A DNA stretch of 64,000 bases, from the NCBI RefSeq assembly GCF_000787815.1, contig NZ_BBPO01000024.1:1-64000 (forward strand), in the 5' to 3' direction. Of this stretch, positions 12,671 through 22,698 are shown one piece after another. Each line of letters begins with the position of its first letter. Positions within the stretch are counted from its first letter, which is position 1. The notes below the pieces were generated by a model. That model was not told where the DNA came from, did not search any database, and saw only the letters and a list, made by a program, of their open reading frames with translations. Both the position numbers and the translations under genes were made by a program. This DNA comes from Streptacidiphilus neutrinimicus. GTDB lineage: Bacteria; Actinomycetota; Actinomycetes; Streptomycetales; Streptomycetaceae.

Positions 12671-13942
12671 TCAGGACATGCGCTCGTCGAGGAGGCGGAC
12701 GAGCTTGCCGGTGCGCGGGTTGACCGTCAGGTCTGCGGCGGTGACCCACTCCAGGGCGAGGGGGTGGATCAGGCCGCGGCGGACGTGGTCGTCGAACATC
12801 GGGCGGGTCTCGCCCAGGCGGCGGGCGATGTCGTGGGCCAGAGCCTGGCGGTCGCCTTCGCCCGGTGTGGTGTCGGCGAGACGCAGGACGAGTTCGTCGA
12901 GCTCGTCGCGGTGCCGCAGGACGATCTGCAGGTCGGCGATCCGGCAGCGCTCGTCCGCCGCGGCGACGACGCCGCGCAGATCCTCCAGGTAGACGGTGAC
13001 CGGGCCGACGCGGGCGCCCTCCTCGGAGCGGCCGAGGAGCCGGAACCGGCGCTGCGGGAAGTCCGTCCACTCCGCCAGGTCGCCGACCGGGTAGCGGATG
13101 ACCGGCATCAGCCTGCGGGCGAGGTCGGTGGCCACCACGCGGCCGGGACGGCCGGGTTCCTCGATCGGCTCGCCGGTGACCGGGTCCAGCAGCTCGACGA
13201 CCTTGTCCGCGGTGAAGACCTGGTGGATGCGCTGGTCGGACTCGCCCGCCACCGGCCCGGCCAGGACGCCCGCGTCGACGCTGGCGTAGCCGATGGAGCG
13301 GACCTCGGCCGCGGGGAAGGCCCGCGCCAGCAGGGCGAGCTGGTCGCCGTAGAAGGCCTCGCCGCTGAACAGGACCAGCCGCACGTCCTGCAGCGTGCCC
13401 GGCCCGGCGACGACCGCGCGGGCCAGCCGGCACAGCGAGGTGGGCGGCGCGGCGAGCACCGTCGCCGAGAAGTCGCGCAGCGTGGCGATGGTGGTGTCCA
13501 GCGGGGCGGCGCCGCCGATCGGCAGCTGGACGGTGGGGATCGGCGCTTCCTGGAGCAGGTTGAGTGTGAAGACGAAGCTCGAGTACAGCTCGCCGGCGTA
13601 GAAGAGGTTGGCCACCCGGTCGCCCGGGAGAAGCCCGGCGGCGGGCAGGCCCTCCCCGAAGCGGTGGCACATCGCGCGCCACTCCTCGCGGGTGTAGCGC
13701 GAGACGCGGGGCGCGCCGGTGGTGCCGCCGGTCTTGAAGACGATCCCGTCGTCGTGCGGGCCGGTCAGGACGCTGCTGGTGGTGGCGCCGTGGGCCTGCC
13801 AGAAGGCGGTGTGGTCGACCAGGGGCAGCGCGGTCAGGTCGCCGGTCGCGGCGGGCAGGTCGGCGTAGAGGTCACGGTAGAACGGCGAGTGCTGCCGCAC
13901 GAAGGCGATCAGGTCCGCCGTGGTGGTCTGGTGAGGGGTCAT
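12671..13942 (-). CDS. PaaK-like adenylate-forming ligase
   Basis: The 423-aa protein has the phenylacetate-CoA-ligase/F390-synthetase layout. A P-loop-like FKTGGTTGAPRVSRYTREEW activates ATP. LFSGEAFYGDQ and SIGYASVDAGVLAG form the adenylate pocket, and the C-terminal domain contains NPRTGKLVRLLDE with the expected lysine. It should activate a carboxylic acid as an acyl-adenylate and pass it to a thiol. It is the last gene of the GNAT/LuxE/LuxC-PaaK operon, 107 bp after the fusion gene. The start at 13942 has only a weak ribosome-binding site. The substrate is unknown. Confidence 0.85.
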   Translation of the reverse strand: MTPHQTTTADLIAFVRQHSPFYRDLYADLPAATGDLTALPLVDHTAFWQAHGATTSSVLTGPHDDGIVFKTGGTTGAPRVSRYTREEWRAMCHRFGEGLPAAGLLPGDRVANLFYAGELYSSFVFTLNLLQEAPIPTVQLPIGGAAPLDTTIATLRDFSATVLAAPPTSLCRLARAVVAGPGTLQDVRLVLFSGEAFYGDQLALLARAFPAAEVRSIGYASVDAGVLAGPVAGESDQRIHQVFTADKVVELLDPVTGEPIEEPGRPGRVVATDLARRLMPVIRYPVGDLAEWTDFPQRRFRLLGRSEEGARVGPVTVYLEDLRGVVAAADERCRIADLQIVLRHRDELDELVLRLADTTPGEGDRQALAHDIARRLGETRPMFDDHVRRGLIHPLALEWVTAADLTVNPRTGKLVRLLDERMS

Positions 13943-13990
13943 CGGTCCGGGTCTCGTCCGTGTCGTCTCTGGGGAGGGGCGGCACCGGGC

Positions 13991-14012
13991 CGGACGGCGA
14001 GGGGGCCGTCCG
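13991..14012 (-). terminator. Intercistronic hairpin between the two ligase genes
   Basis: cggacggc (13991-13998) pairs perfectly with gccgtccg (14005-14012) around a 6-nt loop. It lies in the only real gap (107 bp) of the operon. No U-tract follows, so it could attenuate, terminate partially, or act as an mRNA processing/stability element that sets a different dose for the downstream ligase. Confidence 0.35.
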
Positions 14013-14049
14013 ACCCGGGGTGCAGCGGGCTGCGAGGTGCGGGGCTGCG

Positions 14050-16575
14050 TCAGCGGTTGCGGACCCGGCGGTCGACCACGGCCGGGAGCTTGCCGCTGGC
14101 GGCGGTGCGCTCGAAGGCGTCCGACGGCAGGTGCTCCACGCGGAGGTCGACCAGCCGGTCGCGGACGACCGCCGCCGCGAGCTCGGGGTAGCCGTCCAGG
14201 AAGGCCTGCGCGGTCGCCTCGGCGGTCGAAGCCTCGGCTCCCGCCTCCGCCTCGAGCCGCACCGTCAGCGACTCGCTGGTGGCGTCCTCGTCCAGCACGA
14301 TCTGCAGAGCGCCCCGGTGGCCCAGGTTCTCCTCGGCCACGGCGACGAAGCGGCGGACGTTGAGGAAGTGGCTGCCGCTGCGGAAGATGTCTCCGAACCG
14401 GCCCAGCAGCTCGAAGCGGGGCGTGCGCCGGCCGCACGGGCAGTCGCCGGGCGTCCAGCGCCCGAGGTCGCCGATCTCGTAGCGGTCCAGGCGCTGCCCG
14501 CGCCGCGTGTGCGCGGTGAACACCAGGCGGCCGGTCTCGCCGACGGCGGCGGGACGGTCCTCGTCCATCGCGAGGATCTCCAGCGTGTGCAGACCGCTGA
14601 ACAGGTGGTGCACCCGGTCCGGCGCGTCGGGGCACTGGTAGCCCAGCGGACCCGCGTCGACGCTGCCGTAGGCGGCCGAGCGGATCACCTCGACCCCGAA
14701 CTCGGTGCGCAGCCACTCCCGCTGGGCCTGCGGGAAGTGCTCGCCGCCGAAGAAGATCTTGCGCACGCCGCGGTAGGCGCGCAGCTCGGCCTCGCCGGCC
14801 GCGAACACGCGCAGCAGGTAGTTCGGCATGCCGAACAGCGTGTCGACCCCGTGCTCGACGATCGAGCGGGCGACCAGCGCGTGGTCGTCCTGCGCGGCCA
14901 TCGGGTACTGCACGGCCTGCAGGGTCTCCAGCACCGAGAAGAAGCTGGAGAAGCCGCCGTAGAGCAGACCGCCGAAGAAGAGGTTCATCGCGCGGTCGGT
15001 GCGCACGTCGAAGCCCGCCGCCAGCAGGCCCTCGGCGCCGGAGCGCATGTGCTCGTGGTAGTCGTCCCAGGTGAACGCGGACAGCTTCGGCGCGCCGGAG
15101 CTGCCGCCGCTGCGGAAGAAGACCTCCGCGCGGCTCAGGTCGTCCTGGAGCAGCTCGAAGTCGCTCTTGGACACCACCTCGGCCTTCGGCGGCGCCAGCT
15201 CCCGAGCCGCGACCAGGTCGTCCAGGCACGCGTCGCCGCTGAAGCGCTCGTCCAACTGGACGTCCACGCGGCGGCTGTAGCGCTGGAGCGCGTAGACGCC
15301 GTCGTGCGGCTCGCCGTCGTAGCTGTCCAGCATGCGGCCCGGCACGGTGACGCGCTGCGCGCCCGCGGCGAGCACCGCCTGCGCCAGCGGCGCGGTGTCG
15401 GCGCGCGAGGCGCCGAGGCCGACCGTCTGGAGGTAGCGGCGCATCGGGCGCAGCACCTCCACGATCCGGGTGCGCGGCAGCGGCTTGACCCATACCGTGC
15501 GGTACAGCGGGGAGGCCCGCAGCGCGCTGCGCGTGTCGGCCAGCACCCGCCAGGTGCCGTCCGCGGCCTCGTGCACCCGGGTCAGGCCCAGGTGCTCCTC
15601 CAGCCTGGCGACCAGCACGGTGTTGCTGATCTCGGCACGCTCCAGCAGCTCCGGCGGGGCCGGGGAAAGCGCGGCCACGGCCTGGTCGAGGACGCCGGCG
15701 AACCGCTCGGCGAACGCGAAGACCTGTTCGTCGTCATCGGTGTCGAGGTAGACGACCTGCGGGCTGGAGCAGGCCTGCTGGTCCAGTCGGCAGATGTCCT
15801 CCGCGATGCCGCGCAGCGTCTCGGGCGAGGACCAGGTGTCCTCGGTCAGGTAGCCGAAGGACAGCTTGGGGCCCCAGTCGATGAGACGGCAGCCCGGCGG
15901 CACCAGGGCGGCGACCCCGGCGATGGCCTCCTCGCCGCCCCAGGCGGCGACCGCGTCCGCTTGCTCGCACAGGCGCCGTAGCCACTCGGTGCGGCTGGAG
16001 GGGAAGTTCAGCACGATCGTGCGCGCGGCCAGCAGGCCGCTGGGGTCCAGGTCCGCGAGCTCCGCCAGCAGCATCTGGGTGAACCGCGAACCGCCGCTGG
16101 TCTTCACCGCGTTGACGTTGCCCGCCAGCAGCCCCTCGACCACGCTGAGCGCGCCCGCGGCCGGGGCGTTGCCCGGGGCGACGTGGACCAGCAGCCCGAC
16201 CGGCAGCCAGCCCTCGAAGATCTCGCGCCGGAAGTCGAAGCGGGCCAGCCGGCCCGGGTCGATCCCGCCGAGCTCACGCATGAGCTTGGTCTCCAGCGGC
16301 TCCCGGCCGAGCGCCTCGGCGACGTCGCGCAGGGTACGGGCGGCCTCGTGGGCCGGAACGCCCGAGGCCTCCAACTCGGCTGCCAGGCGCAGCGACTGGG
16401 GGCTGTGCGCGTCGGCAAGGGCGTGGGACAGCAGGTCACAGGCGGCCAGCACGACCAGCGGGCTGAGCTGGTGCCCGAGCGCCGTGCGCACGTCCTCTCC
16501 GAGCGTGTCCAGACGCTTCTCGGCCTCGGCGTCGTCGACCCAGGCGCCCTGCCAGTAGTGCTGATCGATCGTCAT
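14050..16575 (-). CDS. LuxC-type acyl reductase fused to a PaaK-like ligase
   Basis: The 841-aa protein has two halves. Residues ~1-400 are a LuxC-like, aldehyde-dehydrogenase-fold acyl reductase, with DFRREIFEGWLPVG, the HVAPGNAPAAG nucleotide loop and QQACSSPQVV, whose Cys269 is the likely acyl-thioester nucleophile. Residues ~430-841 are a complete adenylate-forming domain: FFRSGGSSGAPKLSAFTWDD, IFFGGEHFPQAQ, SAAYGSVDAGPLGYQC and a CPCGRRTPRFELLGRFGD block with a CxC pair. The protein could activate an acid and reduce it to an aldehyde with NADPH in one polypeptide. Its ATG overlaps the LuxE stop by 4 nt. Classical lux systems keep these activities on separate proteins, so the fusion is notable. 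Confidence 0.88.
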   Translation of the reverse strand: MTIDQHYWQGAWVDDAEAEKRLDTLGEDVRTALGHQLSPLVVLAACDLLSHALADAHSPQSLRLAAELEASGVPAHEAARTLRDVAEALGREPLETKLMRELGGIDPGRLARFDFRREIFEGWLPVGLLVHVAPGNAPAAGALSVVEGLLAGNVNAVKTSGGSRFTQMLLAELADLDPSGLLAARTIVLNFPSSRTEWLRRLCEQADAVAAWGGEEAIAGVAALVPPGCRLIDWGPKLSFGYLTEDTWSSPETLRGIAEDICRLDQQACSSPQVVYLDTDDDEQVFAFAERFAGVLDQAVAALSPAPPELLERAEISNTVLVARLEEHLGLTRVHEAADGTWRVLADTRSALRASPLYRTVWVKPLPRTRIVEVLRPMRRYLQTVGLGASRADTAPLAQAVLAAGAQRVTVPGRMLDSYDGEPHDGVYALQRYSRRVDVQLDERFSGDACLDDLVAARELAPPKAEVVSKSDFELLQDDLSRAEVFFRSGGSSGAPKLSAFTWDDYHEHMRSGAEGLLAAGFDVRTDRAMNLFFGGLLYGGFSSFFSVLETLQAVQYPMAAQDDHALVARSIVEHGVDTLFGMPNYLLRVFAAGEAELRAYRGVRKIFFGGEHFPQAQREWLRTEFGVEVIRSAAYGSVDAGPLGYQCPDAPDRVHHLFSGLHTLEILAMDEDRPAAVGETGRLVFTAHTRRGQRLDRYEIGDLGRWTPGDCPCGRRTPRFELLGRFGDIFRSGSHFLNVRRFVAVAEENLGHRGALQIVLDEDATSESLTVRLEAEAGAEASTAEATAQAFLDGYPELAAAVVRDRLVDLRVEHLPSDAFERTAASGKLPAVVDRRVRNR

Positions 16576-17744
16576 GACGTTCCCTTGAGCAGTTCGGCGG
16601 CGGCGACGGCACAGCTGCGGTTACGGCTGACCCCGGCCCGCCCGTGCACGGCGAACCAGGGGGTGGGCAGCCCGCAGCCGCACTCCTCGGGGGAGTGCTG
16701 CGAGACCAGGTCGCCCATGAGCACCGACTGCGCCGGCACCGAGGTGATGTAGGGGGAGACGAACTGGGCGTAGCCGCGCTCCCCGTAGGGCAGCGGCTCC
16801 AGCGTGCCCACGTCGCGCACCAGCATCCGCGACCAGGTCGGCACGTGCAGCCGGTGGTTGGCGCACTCCATGTACAGCACCGAGTGCTCGACCGCGCCGT
16901 AGCCGTCGCGGATCCGCTCGTCGGGGATGCCCAGCTGGTCGTGGATGCGGCGGTAGAGCTCCGGCTTGGCGACCTGCTTGTCGGCGTGGCCCTTCCAGCC
17001 GCCGCCGAAGACGACCAGCGAACGCGGGTCCAACCGCACCGGGGGCAGGCCGAGATCGCGCATCCGGTCCAGGGTGAAGGACAGGAACGCGGGGAAGCCC
17101 AGGATCCGCACCGGGGCGCCCTCCTCCGCGTAGCGCAGCAGGGCCCGCGCGCAGCCGAAGGGGTCGAACTCGTGCCCCGCGCCGGTGTGCTTGAGCGCGT
17201 ACTCGACGGACCGCACCGGCGCGAAGTGGCACAGGTACTCGTCCGTGAAGGAGGTGCCGAGGTTCAGGCCGGGCCGCGGCTGGTAGTTGGAGAGCAGGTA
17301 GTTGACCGGCTCCTCCTCGCCCAGCCAGCCGTAGGAGTCGAAGACCCGGGCGACCATCCGCTGCCCGTTGCGCAGCGTCCAGTGGTCGAAGAACATCTGC
17401 GACTTCTGCCCGGTCGTTCCGGAGGAGGTGACGTGCAGCGCGACGTCCTGCTCAGGGATGGAGACGATCTCGTGGGCCTTGAAGAAGTTGGCGTGCACGT
17501 AGGGGAGTCGGTGCAGCTCGTCGATGCCGCCCAGCGGCGCACCGCCGGTGGGGCCGGACTCGAAGAGCCGCGCGAAGAACGGCGACCTGGCCGCGTGCCA
17601 CGCGTTGGACTCGTTCATCGCCCGGACGAACAGCTCGTCCAGCTCTGCGCCGACGGCGTACGGCTCGGCGATGTCGCACAGCTGCTGGACGTGCGCGAGC
17701 GCGGCCGGGTCCGGGACCGCGACCGGGTCAAGATACTGGCTCAT
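16572..17744 (-). CDS. LuxE-like acyl-protein synthetase
   Basis: The 390-aa protein has the LuxE/PaaK adenylation loop TSSGTTGQKSQMFF (residues 106-119), the FGGGWKGHADKQVAK motif and DGYGAVEHSVLYMEC, a pattern close to luciferase-associated acyl-protein synthetases. Near the C-terminus, ECGCGLPTPWF provides cysteines that could accept the acyl group. In lux systems LuxE activates a fatty acid and transfers it to LuxC. Here it lies directly between a GNAT protein and the LuxC-PaaK fusion, with ATGA overlaps at both ends, so a LuxE-to-LuxC acyl handover is likely. No luxAB genes are present. Confidence 0.9.
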   Translation of the reverse strand: MSQYLDPVAVPDPAALAHVQQLCDIAEPYAVGAELDELFVRAMNESNAWHAARSPFFARLFESGPTGGAPLGGIDELHRLPYVHANFFKAHEIVSIPEQDVALHVTSSGTTGQKSQMFFDHWTLRNGQRMVARVFDSYGWLGEEEPVNYLLSNYQPRPGLNLGTSFTDEYLCHFAPVRSVEYALKHTGAGHEFDPFGCARALLRYAEEGAPVRILGFPAFLSFTLDRMRDLGLPPVRLDPRSLVVFGGGWKGHADKQVAKPELYRRIHDQLGIPDERIRDGYGAVEHSVLYMECANHRLHVPTWSRMLVRDVGTLEPLPYGERGYAQFVSPYITSVPAQSVLMGDLVSQHSPEECGCGLPTPWFAVHGRAGVSRNRSCAVAAAELLKGTS

Positions 17745-18892
17745 TGAAAGATCCCGTGGGTGTTGAGGTACCGCTGCTTCCACAGCTCGATGTACTGCTC
17801 GGTGAAGGGGCGGAAGGCGGCGTCGATGGCCAGGCCGCGGAAGTCGAGGGGCTTCATGGTGCGCGCCATCACCACGTAGTCGCGGTAGCCGTCGCCCTCG
17901 CGGCGCATCGCCGGATAGGCGGCGGCCGGCAGAAACCCGTTGCCGAGCAGCAGGTTCAGGTCCGCGTAGCGGTCCAGCGGCAGCAGCATCTCGATGTGCA
18001 GCGCGCCGTGGTCGGACAGGGTGCTGATCACCGCGTCGAGGTCGCCGCCGCGCTCCGACAGACCCGGAGCCGTGGCGACGAGCGCGCAGTAGCCGTCGCC
18101 CCGGTTCAGTTGGGCGTAGACCTCGAAGCCGCCGTCCTCGGCGGTGAGCAGCACGTTCGGCGTGTGGAAGGGGTAGAACCGGTCCCCGGGCTCGGGGACC
18201 GCCTCGGCGAACCGGCGCCGGACGAACGCGGGCGCGTCCACGAGCTCGAAGGAGGACGCGGCGCGCGGTCCGACGTGGTCGGGGGTCTGCGTGGTCCGCT
18301 CGTCCACCGTGGGCCGGGGCGCGTCGGGCAGGCCGACGGTCTCGTGGACCGCGTCGACCAGGCCGCCGAGCCCGGCCGGCACCCGCGGCACCGCGAGGCG
18401 CTGTTCCAGGACTCCGGGCCGGTGACGGGCCAGGAGCACCATGGTCTCGTGGCGTTCGGACTTGCGCAGGTTCGGGAACACGCCGAGGGCCTTGAACCCG
18501 CTCTGCAGACAGATGCGTTGCGGCGCAGTGGAGTTGGTGCGCGCCGTCGCGTAGACGGAGTCCACCGGCTGCTCGCCCAGGATCTGGTCGCTGAGCTCCT
18601 GTACGGCCTGTCGTGCGATCCCGCCGCCGCGGGCGTCGGGGTGGACGGCCAGTCCCTGCAGTTTGCCCAGTCGCTCCTGGGGCGAGACGGTGCCGAGAAT
18701 CGAGGCGACCAGCCGCCCCTGCGGGCCGGTGCGGGCCACCAGCCAGGTGGTCGTGGGGGAGTCGATCTCCCGCGCCATCACCTCCCGGTCGGTGCCGAGA
18801 GGCAGGGTGTACGAGCTGCCGTACACGGCCCGATAGAGCGTCAGCAGCTCGTCGATGTCGTCCGTGCGGGCAGCACGGAATTGCGCAGCCAA
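17741..18892 (-). CDS. GNAT-family acyltransferase with an extra C-terminal domain
   Basis: The start is a TTG at 18892-18890, chosen because GGGGAGG lies 5 nt upstream; it gives 383 aa beginning (M)AAQFRAARTDDIDELLTLYR. The N-terminal ~165 residues are an N-acetyltransferase domain with the acetyl-CoA loop LQGLAVHPDARGGGIARQAV. The C-terminal half (from about FELVDAPAFVRRRF) resembles a second, degenerate GNAT-like domain ending in YIELWKQRYLNTHG. It is the first gene of the reductase operon and overlaps LuxE by ATGA. A 270-bp gap (18893-19162) upstream should hold the promoter, though I see no strong hexamers. It might acylate an amine substrate or product of the pathway. Confidence 0.85.
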   Translation of the reverse strand: MAAQFRAARTDDIDELLTLYRAVYGSSYTLPLGTDREVMAREIDSPTTTWLVARTGPQGRLVASILGTVSPQERLGKLQGLAVHPDARGGGIARQAVQELSDQILGEQPVDSVYATARTNSTAPQRICLQSGFKALGVFPNLRKSERHETMVLLARHRPGVLEQRLAVPRVPAGLGGLVDAVHETVGLPDAPRPTVDERTTQTPDHVGPRAASSFELVDAPAFVRRRFAEAVPEPGDRFYPFHTPNVLLTAEDGGFEVYAQLNRGDGYCALVATAPGLSERGGDLDAVISTLSDHGALHIEMLLPLDRYADLNLLLGNGFLPAAAYPAMRREGDGYRDYVVMARTMKPLDFRGLAIDAAFRPFTEQYIELWKQRYLNTHGIFQ

Positions 18893-19504: not shown

Positions 19505-21034
19505 TCAGTGGCCCATCCGGCCCGGCGCGGCGGGGTCGAGCTGACGCCGTGCGAAGTCGGCCCTTTCCCGGGCGAGGAGGGCGCGTGCGAGGGCCTCGGC
19601 CTGTTGGCGGATCTCGGGGATCGCCGTGGATTCGAGAAGGTCGCCGCGTCGCAGGCTGCCCAGGGTCCACAGCGGGGCCGGGGTCGTGCCCGGGGCGGGG
19701 AGGAGCCGGCCGGTCGGGTCGGTCCGGAAGCCGCCGGGGGGCGCTGCGGCCTGGGCGAGGCCGGAGCCGAGCAGGGCGGAGACGAGCGGGTCGTCGACGC
19801 GGGTGAGGTCGGTACGGGAGCCGGTGCAGTTCACCACCGCGCCCACGGTGAGGGCGCGGCCGTCGTCGAGGACGACGCGGATGCCGTCGGGGGTGACCGT
19901 GGCCGAGGCGACCGTGCCCCGGCCGACGGCGACCCGGCCGGCGTCGATCGCGCCCTGGAGGGCTGCCGCGCTGCTCGGCGGGATCCGGTGGCGGTGGGTC
20001 TCCCAGTGGCGGAGGTCCTCGCGTAGGAAGCGGGCCCGCTCGTCGGGGGTGATTCGCTGCCACAGCGCGGTGGTGAGCGGGCGGAGGCTGTCGAAGCCCG
20101 GCCGCCAGTCGCCGTGCGTCCGGCGGCACCGCGACAGGTGGCGGAGCACCGCCCGGCGCAGGTCGCCGAGGCCGGTGCACCCCTCCAGTTCGGGGGCGTC
20201 CGCCGGGGCGGCGGGGGTGTCGCCGTGGCGCTGGGGGAGCAGCCCGTGGCGTGAGACCGCGTGGACGACGCGGCCGGGCCGCTGGAGGGTGTGGGCGATG
20301 TCGACCATGGTCAGTCCGGTGCCGACGAGCAGCACGTCGCCGCTGTCGCCGACGGCGGCGTCCAGCCCCGCGACCCACGGGTCGGGGAAGAAGCCGGCCG
20401 CGTCGCGCAGCGCGGGGGGCGCCCAGCTGTCGTCGGGTGCGAAGTTGCCCAGCGCGAGGACGGCGGCGTGGACCTGGAGGACCTGTCCGGTGGCGAAGCC
20501 GAGCTCTACGAGCGCAGACCCGTCGCCGTCAGGAGCGTCCGAGGCGTGGCCGACCGAGACGACCCGCTCGTGCAGGCGGAGCAGCTCCGGCGCGCCGCGC
20601 AGCCGGGCCGCGTCCTCCAGACTCTCGGCGAGGTAGCGCCCGTAGACGCGGCGCGGGACGAAGCCGGCGCTGTGCCCGTGCGCGGCGAGCCACCGCACGA
20701 AGTGGTCGGGCTCGTCGACGTGGGCGCTCATGTTGGTGGCCGGGACGTTGAGCAGATGGTGCGGCTCGGTGGTGGAGAAGGCCAGGCCGCCTCCGGTGGG
20801 AGCCGGGTCGACGAGCCAGACGCGGCAGGCGGGCTCACGCTGCCCCGCATGCTCGGCGGCGTTGCGGAGCAGTCGCATCGCCGTCAGGGTGCCCGCCGCC
20901 CCCGCGCCGACGACGGCGATGTCGCGCACGGTCCCGGAGCGAGCGGCAGAGGCGGGACCGGCGGACGGGGTGGGGTGCGCGGTGCGTGCGGTCGAAAAGC
21001 GTCGGGCGTCTGCGACGGTGAGGGTCTCGGCCAT
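19505..21034 (-). CDS. FAD/NAD(P)-binding protein paired with the cysteine-dioxygenase-like gene
   Basis: The 509-aa protein has an N-terminal FAD-binding VVGAGAAGTLTAMRLL after a ~35-residue Ala/Thr-rich leader, and a second nucleotide-binding motif VLLVGTGLTMVDIAHTLQRP in the middle. It also has HLLNVPATNMSAHVDEPDHF, the hallmark of the NAD_binding_9-type flavoprotein family. It ends near LWTLGSLRRGDLLESTAIPE. It lies 101 bp downstream of the cupin gene on the same strand, and such pairs recur in actinobacteria. It may oxidise or reduce a sulfur compound made by its partner; the reaction is not known. Confidence 0.88.
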   Translation of the reverse strand: MAETLTVADARRFSTARTAHPTPSAGPASAARSGTVRDIAVVGAGAAGTLTAMRLLRNAAEHAGQREPACRVWLVDPAPTGGGLAFSTTEPHHLLNVPATNMSAHVDEPDHFVRWLAAHGHSAGFVPRRVYGRYLAESLEDAARLRGAPELLRLHERVVSVGHASDAPDGDGSALVELGFATGQVLQVHAAVLALGNFAPDDSWAPPALRDAAGFFPDPWVAGLDAAVGDSGDVLLVGTGLTMVDIAHTLQRPGRVVHAVSRHGLLPQRHGDTPAAPADAPELEGCTGLGDLRRAVLRHLSRCRRTHGDWRPGFDSLRPLTTALWQRITPDERARFLREDLRHWETHRHRIPPSSAAALQGAIDAGRVAVGRGTVASATVTPDGIRVVLDDGRALTVGAVVNCTGSRTDLTRVDDPLVSALLGSGLAQAAAPPGGFRTDPTGRLLPAPGTTPAPLWTLGSLRRGDLLESTAIPEIRQQAEALARALLARERADFARRQLDPAAPGRMGH

Positions 21035-21057
21035 GCCGTTCGTCTTTCTTCTGGTGC

Positions 21058-21107
21058 GGGGGCGCGGGTGCCCGGGGCGCGGGGGCGCGGGGTGCGCGGG
21101 GCGCGGG
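21058..21107. other. G-rich low-complexity tract with quadruplex-forming potential
   Basis: The plus strand has seven runs of three to five G's separated by 1-6 nt (cgggggcgcggg, ccggggcgcgggggcg and so on). It lies between the cupin and FAD genes, both read from the minus strand, so the G-rich strand is the template strand. Such a tract could slow transcription and reduce expression of the downstream flavoprotein gene. Confidence 0.6.
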
Positions 21108-21135
21108 AAGTCGGAGGCGGGGTGGTGGTCCGCCG

Positions 21136-21729
21136 TCAGGACTCTTCGTGCGGCGCCCGGTAGGTCCTGCGGACGCTCGAACCCAGCCGGGATATGTCCG
21201 CGCCGTAGATGTGCAGGGAGATCGCCTTGGTGGCGCCGGTGTTGCGCACGCGGTGGATGTCGCCGGGCGGCGCGATCGCCGAGAGCGCGCCGGGCGGGTT
21301 CACCAGGACGGCGTCGCGGACCAGCTCCGCGGTCTCGCCCGCGCCGGTGAGCCGGTAGCGGTGCTCGGTCTCCTGGCCCTCGTGGACCCCGGCGACGCAC
21401 CAGCAGACGTGGTCGTGGATCGGGGTCTGCTGGCCGGGCAGCCAGACCAGGGCCACCACGGAGAAGCTCCCGTCGGGCTCCCCGTGCAGCAGGTGCTGCC
21501 GGTAGGCGCGCGGATCGCCTTCCCGCTGGGCGTCGGTCAGCAGACCGGGCCTGCCGAGCGAGGGTCTGAGCACCTCGGCGACCTGGTCCGCCGTCAGCTG
21601 CGGCGACAGGTCGCGGCGGAGTACCTCACGGATCCCGGCGGCGAGATCGCGGATCCAGGGCGTCGTGGTGACGCCGGGCGCTTGCGCTTCGTGTGCGGTG
21701 GATGAGGGCACGGGCTCCACTGTGCGCAC
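21136..21729 (-). CDS. Cysteine-dioxygenase-family cupin protein
   Basis: The 197-aa protein has the cupin thiol-dioxygenase metal motif PIHDHVCWC with H105 and H107, and the third ligand H159 in APPGDIHRVRNTG. Y175 is in SLHIYGADISRLG, the position of the catalytic tyrosine. This family oxidises thiols such as cysteine to sulfinates with O2 and Fe(II). C109 and C111 follow the HxH, where many bacterial members have Thr or Gly, so a Cys-Tyr crosslink cannot be ruled out. It is the first gene of the pair with the flavoprotein and has two operator-like sites directly upstream. Confidence 0.88.
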   Translation of the reverse strand: MRTVEPVPSSTAHEAQAPGVTTTPWIRDLAAGIREVLRRDLSPQLTADQVAEVLRPSLGRPGLLTDAQREGDPRAYRQHLLHGEPDGSFSVVALVWLPGQQTPIHDHVCWCVAGVHEGQETEHRYRLTGAGETAELVRDAVLVNPPGALSAIAPPGDIHRVRNTGATKAISLHIYGADISRLGSSVRRTYRAPHEES

Positions 21730-21748
21730 CGCGTCGCATCGCGTCCAA

Positions 21749-21782
21749 CAAGCGTTGCTTGGGTACGGTCAAGCGCTGCTTA
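21749..21782 (-). promoter_or_regulatory. Two matched inverted-repeat sites, probable LysR operators
   Basis: CAAGC-GTT-GCTTG (21749-21761) is a perfect inverted repeat, and CAAGC-GCT-GCTTA (21770-21782) is a near copy. Their centres are 21 bp apart, two helical turns, on the same DNA face. They fill the 60-bp gap between the LysR stop and the cupin start. Paired sites of this kind are expected for tetrameric LysR regulators. Confidence 0.6.
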
Positions 21783-21789
21783 TGCGGAG

Positions 21790-22698
21790 TCAGGTGCCCG
21801 GGTGGGCGCGGGCGACGTCGCGGAGCACGTCCAGGACCAGGGCGATCGAGGGCAGGTGGGTGTGCTCGCGCAACGCGTAGGCGGCGATCTTCCGGTGGGT
21901 GAGCGGTTCCACGGGGCGTGCGGTGACCTTGTCGTGGCGCAGGAAGCCGAGCACCAGGGCGGGCATCAGGGCGACTCCGGCGCCCACCGAGACCAGGTTC
22001 TGCACCGCCAGGTTGTCGTCGGTGGCGAAGACGACGTCCGGCGCGAAGCCCTGCTCCGCGCAGGCGTACAGCAGGTTCGCCTGACATCGCGGACAGCCCG
22101 CGATCCAGCGTTCGGAGGCGAGGTCGGCGAGGCGGACCGCGCTGTGCCGGGCGGCCGGGTGGCCCACCGGCAGCAGCGCCGTCACCGGGTCCTCCATCAG
22201 CGGGTACTCGACCAGCTCGGCGGCGTCCCCGACCTGGAAGCCGGGATAGCTGAAGGCCAGGGCGATGTCGCAGTCCCCGCGCGGGACGCGGCGCAGCGAG
22301 CCGGGCGGTTCGTCCTCCTGTAACTCGATCCGGATCCCGGGGTGTTCCGCCAGCAGCCGGGCGATCACCGCGGGCACCAGCGTCGCGTTGGCGCTGGGGA
22401 ACGCGCAGATCCGCACGCGTCCCAGGTGCAGCCGCGCCAGCGCGCCCAACTGCTGCTCCGCCGCCGACAGCTGGCCCAGGATCAAGCCGGTGTGCCGGGC
22501 CAGGGCCTCGCCCGCCTCCGTCAGTCTCAGCCTGCGTCCCGCACGGACGAACAGCGGCATGCCGACGCTGCGCTCCAGTGCGCGCATCTGCTGCGTGATG
22601 GCGGGCTGGGTGCAGCCCAGGGCACGTGCGGCGGCGGAGAAGGTGCCGGCGCTCACCACTTCGTGAAATGTGGCGAGATGGCGTGAGTCAAGCACCAT
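21790..22698 (-). CDS. LysR-family transcriptional regulator
   Basis: The 302-aa protein has a textbook LysR helix-turn-helix: LATFHEVVSAGTFSAAARAL, then GCTQPAITQQMRALERSVGM. The effector domain contains an unusual cluster of cysteines (AGCPRCQANLLYACAEQGF), which could make it thiol- or redox-sensitive. It lies 60 bp upstream of the cysteine-dioxygenase-like gene on the same strand, with two matched inverted repeats between them. The likely role is control of the cupin/flavoprotein pair in response to a sulfur compound; that is inference. Confidence 0.92.
   Translation of the reverse strand: MVLDSRHLATFHEVVSAGTFSAAARALGCTQPAITQQMRALERSVGMPLFVRAGRRLRLTEAGEALARHTGLILGQLSAAEQQLGALARLHLGRVRICAFPSANATLVPAVIARLLAEHPGIRIELQEDEPPGSLRRVPRGDCDIALAFSYPGFQVGDAAELVEYPLMEDPVTALLPVGHPAARHSAVRLADLASERWIAGCPRCQANLLYACAEQGFAPDVVFATDDNLAVQNLVSVGAGVALMPALVLGFLRHDKVTARPVEPLTHRKIAAYALREHTHLPSIALVLDVLRDVARAHPGT

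Follow-up and report, generated by a model that had tools for sequence, protein, structure and literature searches.

The four genes on the minus strand at positions 12671 to 18892 of the stretch of Streptacidiphilus neutrinimicus DNA analysed here (64,000 nucleotides of contig NZ_BBPO01000024.1, hereafter the window) encode a GNAT acyltransferase, a LuxE-type acyl-protein synthetase, a LuxC reductase fused at its C-terminus to a PaaK-type ligase, and a stand-alone PaaK-type ligase. They very probably represent a pathway of the leup type (we put the probability at about 0.87); its product, which we infer from the homologs, would be an N-acyl tripeptide aldehyde assembled without a nonribosomal peptide synthetase (NRPS). 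The best known compound of this kind is leupeptin (Ac-Leu-Leu-argininal), a small peptide aldehyde which inhibits proteases. The assignment is based upon the exact match of a Klebsiella locus to published primers and amplicon size, the homology of the window proteins to those of that locus, the intact catalytic residues, and the conservation of the gene set. A preliminary description of this DNA had recognised no described pathway with these genes; since leupABCD is a characterised pathway which matches them, the claim to novelty falls.

The leupABCD pathway is said to have been described by Li et al. in 2020 from Xenorhabdus, Photorhabdus and Klebsiella michiganensis. In Streptomyces roseus, biochemical studies of around 1980 reportedly distinguished three activities: an acyltransferase acting on acetyl-CoA and leucine, a leupeptin acid synthetase requiring ATP, and a leupeptin acid reductase requiring both ATP and NADPH. 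Such activities would suit the genes of the window set. Genomes of Photorhabdus encode LuxE, LuxC-PaaK, PaaK and GNAT proteins, which suggested the leupeptin pathway as the identity of the set. Leupeptin is made by a non-NRPS route in which separate AMP-dependent ligases form the amide bonds and a reductase generates the aldehyde (PMC11212599). Among titles cited in PMC8546846 are one reporting the first isolation of leupeptins from actinomycetes and one reporting that leupeptin production by Streptomyces roseus is transferable by conjugation.

The leup locus of K. oxytoca/michiganensis has been defined by primers and coordinates, with a span of 5,831 bp and a leupA/leupB amplicon of 1,235 bp (PMC8283571). 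The published core_f primer led us to the genus Klebsiella, in which 2 of 20 genomes carry the cassette; a blastn search of Escherichia coli genomes gave no match. At the Klebsiella locus L174 the primers leupA_f and leupB_r anneal without mismatch 1,235 bp apart, which is the published amplicon size, and both published core (flanking) primers match either side of it, again with no mismatches. The position of primer leupA_f inside the LuxE gene identifies the latter as leupA, and the LuxC-PaaK gene, which contains leupB_r, is leupB by the same reasoning. The genes occur in the order LuxE, LuxC-PaaK, PaaK, GNAT and occupy 5,837 bp as against the published 5,831 bp; this order and span point to the PaaK gene as leupC and the GNAT gene as leupD.

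Three of the four window proteins are readily aligned with their Klebsiella counterparts by BLAST. The LuxE-type protein (LeupA counterpart; 390 aa, 16572..17744; Pfam LuxE, E = 3e-24) shares 51% identity with the leupA product over 374 aa. The LuxC-PaaK protein (LeupB counterpart; 841 aa, 14050..16575) is the same fusion as LeupB and is 40–41% identical to it over approximately 750 aa; Pfam LuxC covers residues 61–435 (4e-86), the PaaK-type region begins near residue 465 and extends to 841, and the predicted model matches 7xc6_A as well as PaaK structures. The stand-alone ligase (LeupC counterpart; 423 aa, 12671..13942) is 37–39% identical to LeupC over 420–430 aa. Pfam AMP-binding matches to the fused and lone PaaK units (4e-7 and 2.5e-4) both fall below the Pfam cut-off, and NCBIfam PaaK-type ligase models recognise the two with E-values of 3e-21 and 2e-20, respectively. 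A phylogenetic tree of LuxC unites the window protein with the enteric leup proteins in one clade (support 99/100), separate from the LuxC proteins of bioluminescence.

The catalytic residues are intact in the window proteins. Alignments of 15 LuxC-PaaK and LuxE proteins from Actinomycetota, Bdellovibrionota, other Deltaproteobacteria and archaea show the LuxC catalytic cysteine, C269 (codon 15769..15771), to be invariant in 15/15 and aligned to the DQQAC motif of LuxC in 7xc6, the solved Photobacterium LuxC-LuxE complex. Equally invariant (15/15) is the acyl-accepting C378 of LuxE (codon 16611..16613), aligned to the C-terminal cysteine of LuxE in that complex (chain E). The catalytic lysine of the fused PaaK, K829 (codon 14089..14091), lies in an SxK motif invariant in the 15-member alignment, and that of the stand-alone PaaK, K413 (codon 12704..12706), in a GK motif invariant in 12 sequences.

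LuxC and LuxE domains with the catalytic cysteines of lux would also suit a lux-type fatty-acid reductase that produces long-chain aldehydes and merely lies next to unrelated ligases. This is highly improbable. The NCBIfam lux equivalogs score 61 of 550 bits (LuxE) and 92 of 750 bits (LuxC), and with so weak a match the window reductase is not a luminescence reductase; no luxA, luxB or luxD lies beside the set, in agreement with the preliminary description, which had found no luciferase; and the same set, complete with both PaaK units and the GNAT, constitutes leupABCD in Klebsiella. The main literature match for LuxC/LuxE clusters, the LuxE/LuxC genes of Aeromonas flagellin glycosylation, was rejected because they sit beside acyl carrier protein and sugar genes and form a different set.

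Several observations weigh against the leup assignment. The GNAT protein (LeupD counterpart; 383 aa, 17741..18892; Pfam Acetyltransf_1, 1.2e-7) gave no BLAST match to Klebsiella LeupD at 1e-4. It exceeds LeupD in length, and its match to the LeupD profile (7.7e-15), a distant one, is confined to the N-terminal lobe, the second lobe being extra in the window protein. The GNAT gene is first in the window set and last in the enteric operon. The MFS-like gene which adjoins the Klebsiella locus has no counterpart here, and no exporter gene was found among the genes adjacent to the set. The clade with the enteric leup LuxC proteins also includes the LuxC of a different cluster, one resembling those for ribosomally synthesized and post-translationally modified peptides (RiPPs). 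Finally, identities of 37–51% to the Klebsiella proteins leave the choice of substrates open. In its AlphaFold model (pLDDT 88) the window GNAT displays the strand-helix order of the family twice, at residues 4–157 and 215–345, and is thus predicted to be a tandem, two-lobed GNAT.

The same features bear on a sub-case of the leup-type reading, namely that leupeptin chemistry is employed to make some other N-acylated di- or tripeptide aldehyde, in which the residues or the acyl cap differ. We consider this a serious possibility of somewhat less than even odds. It is favoured by the modest identity to the Klebsiella proteins, the different, two-lobed GNAT and the deep branching of the clades, and K. 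oxytoca itself makes a lysine analogue alongside leupeptin (PMC11480411). On the other side, conservation throughout the family takes in the catalytic positions and many of those around them, and actinomycetes, to judge from titles cited in PMC8546846, are the classical producers of leupeptin.

The proposed leup-type route would begin with the GNAT transferring an acetyl (or propionyl) cap from coenzyme A to an amino acid such as leucine. The stand-alone and LuxC-borne PaaK units would each adenylate a carboxylate and couple it to the next amino acid, the two units accounting for two peptide bonds and yielding Ac-Leu-Leu-Arg if the product is leupeptin. LuxE would then adenylate the peptide acid and accept it on Cys378; LuxC would take over the acyl group on Cys269 and convert it, by reduction with NAD(P)H, into the C-terminal aldehyde; the product would inhibit serine or cysteine proteases. 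From the leup precedent we infer which ligase serves which bond, which residues are incorporated and what this strain produces. The preliminary description had regarded three adenylating units feeding one LuxC as more activation capacity than a reductase needs. All three units are present, and two ligases for two peptide bonds, together with LuxE loading the finished acid onto LuxC, would explain this excess; by analogy with leup, probably only LuxE feeds the reductase and the other two make peptide bonds. Its suggestion that two or more acids are activated agrees with this reading, and a small molecule bearing an aldehyde and containing amide bonds is the best inference for the product.

The closest relatives of the PaaK units include aryl-acid ligases of the PaaK type (the BagE/FevW model, NatL2, AjiA1 and ClxA), as would be expected if the set were an aryl carboxylic acid reductase comparable to GriC/GriD of grixazone biosynthesis and released an aromatic aldehyde. 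We think this most unlikely: the scores of such models fall far under their cut-offs, no genes for aryl acid biosynthesis were recognised nearby, and the GNAT and second ligase would be left unexplained.

The organization of the genes agrees with the preliminary description, the sequence and the Pfam and NCBIfam matches confirming all four at 12671–18892. The GNAT gene starts with TTG, directly preceded by a GGGGAGG ribosome site, and the first three genes are tied together by two ATGA overlaps (GNAT/LuxE at 17741..17744 and LuxE/LuxC-PaaK at 16572..16575, both read from the minus strand); the PaaK gene starts 107 bp downstream of LuxC-PaaK. They had been described as one transcription unit. 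A scan for consensus promoters and terminators found no site within the four-gene set. However, in eight relatives belonging to Streptacidiphilus, Kitasatospora, Streptantibioticus and Streptomyces (loci L036, L038–L042, L046 and L048) the PaaK gene is convergent on the opposite strand; it need therefore not share the transcript of the other three.

The genes do travel as a unit, a point which the preliminary description had raised. In 77 LuxC-PaaK loci a LuxE gene lies beside the fusion in 76, a GNAT gene in 71 and a PaaK gene in 58, with all four present in 53; some absences reflect contig ends, some loci carry a PaaK-like protein that was assigned to a different type, and a few derive from the same or close genomes. 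The recurrence of the LuxE/LuxC-PaaK core is far above chance. Pairwise protein distances correlate at 0.94 for LuxE with LuxC-PaaK and at 0.78–0.92 for the other pairs, shared phylogeny being left in. Transporter genes occur at these loci as well (MFS at 23, MATE at 6). The flanks are scattered among relatives while the set itself is retained, and its unrelated surroundings include plasmids, Bdellovibrionota, Bacteroidales and archaea.

The S. neutrinimicus genome has one copy of the cassette, which is also present in 5 of 13 further Streptacidiphilus genomes. A scan of species genomes gave matches in Streptacidiphilus, Kitasatospora, Streptantibioticus, Kutzneria, Corynebacterium oculi, relatives of Bdellovibrio, a Desulfobulbus and the Methanomethylophilaceae. 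Within groups chosen since a member already had the cassette, and at an E-value limit which admits some divergent, partial or contig-cut versions, matches were found in about a quarter of the Bdellovibrionota (55/241), 3/396 Actinomycetota, 4/295 genomes of the order of the Bacteroidales locus, 5/200 of the class of the archaeal locus and 15/392 of the family of Photorhabdus. This spread, which takes in archaea and predatory bacteria, is far wider than expected.

In the 77-locus comparison the archaeal loci lack a stand-alone PaaK and may, judging by gene content, make shorter aldehydes. Tentatively, the leup-type cassette could be a general, horizontally moving maker of small N-acyl peptide aldehydes in bacteria and archaea, the number of PaaK units setting the chain length; the loci of Methanomethylophilaceae and Methanomassiliicoccaceae without the stand-alone PaaK would then give dipeptide aldehydes, and in several lineages the cassette would be wired to a SpoIIE/STAS/HATPase partner switch, with HATPase fused to the GNAT and to a MATE exporter. 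In the archaea (L059:1483-10318, L061:6015-14542 and L125–L127) genes for a SpoIIE phosphatase, a STAS protein, a HATPase-GNAT fusion, LuxE, LuxC-PaaK and a MATE-HATPase fusion are consecutive, placing an apparent partner-switch module inside the putative peptide-aldehyde cassette. Similar SpoIIE/STAS/HATPase modules were seen in Bacteroidales (L124), Bdellovibrionota (L109) and the Desulfobulbus (L054).

Other variants were encountered. The Bdellovibrionota loci L105–L117 carry a second, divergent type of LuxC-PaaK with other partners, some with an extra 450-aa PaaK-like protein, and one genome of this phylum (G1033) carries both types. The cassette is found on plasmids of Streptomyces and on two conjugative IncF plasmids of Salmonella enterica (CP054717.1 and CP053580.1; L077:8389-14552 and L078), where an apparently truncated transporter-like gene and recombinase genes are near. 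The Streptomyces europaeiscabiei plasmid NZ_CP109155.1 (L079:886-9344) encodes a YcaO-nitroreductase, a metallo-beta-lactamase fold protein, an MbnB/TglH-type enzyme, LuxE and a LuxC without PaaK. This locus resembles a RiPP cluster, the product of which may be a peptide aldehyde, and in the tree its LuxC is placed within the actinobacterial leup-type clade. A RiPP origin, an idea derived from this plasmid, was rejected for the window set, near which no RiPP enzyme was recognised.

Upstream of the window set, at 19505–22698, are genes for a LysR regulator, a cysteine-dioxygenase-like cupin and an FAD-NAD(P)-binding protein, common to S. melanogenes only among the loci compared. From 27204 to 64000 there are two very large open reading frames (6276 aa and >5984 aa), preceded by genes for a P450 and a beta-lactamase-fold protein; judged by their size and start, they probably encode NRPSs. 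With this presumed locus only 8 kb away, the set could be regarded as its tailoring unit. Such a role is very doubtful, since S. melanogenes, the closest relative compared, is syntenic on the cassette side but yielded no NRPS call within the stretch examined, and in other relatives the cassette stands in unrelated surroundings.

The leup genes were described in enterobacteria and leupeptin was first obtained from actinomycetes, and the 6.2 kb window set is a candidate for the actinomycete version. The kind of pathway is already known and involves no new biochemical principle; the interest lies in having candidate genes from an actinomycete, together with widespread, regulated variants elsewhere. 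Sampling on this scale suggests the production of peptide aldehydes without ribosome or NRPS in Bdellovibrionota, gut-associated archaea and Bacteroidales, groups from which, to our knowledge (no systematic literature search was made), such protease inhibitors have not been reported.

In comparison with other known systems, the NRPS-made peptide aldehydes antipain and MAPI belong to the same product class, and the window set differs in that Pfam revealed neither condensation nor carrier domains in its four proteins, nor a reductase domain of the NRPS type. PaaK-family ligases (PaaK1/2, AjiA1, NatL2, ClxA and BagE/FevW), which activate aryl acids, resemble the fused PaaK in fold and motifs and both PaaK units in sequence; in the window set peptide intermediates would be expected as substrates instead. 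The fatty-acid reductase LuxC-LuxE of the luciferase system (7xc6) offers a parallel for the last step, with adenylation, transfer of the acyl group from the LuxE cysteine to the LuxC cysteine, and reduction, while the window LuxC differs in bearing a PaaK domain, in falling far below the lux equivalog cut-offs and in lacking luxABD as neighbours. With leupABCD, the window set shares the compact clustering of LuxE-like, LuxC-PaaK, stand-alone PaaK and GNAT genes and the same catalytic residues.

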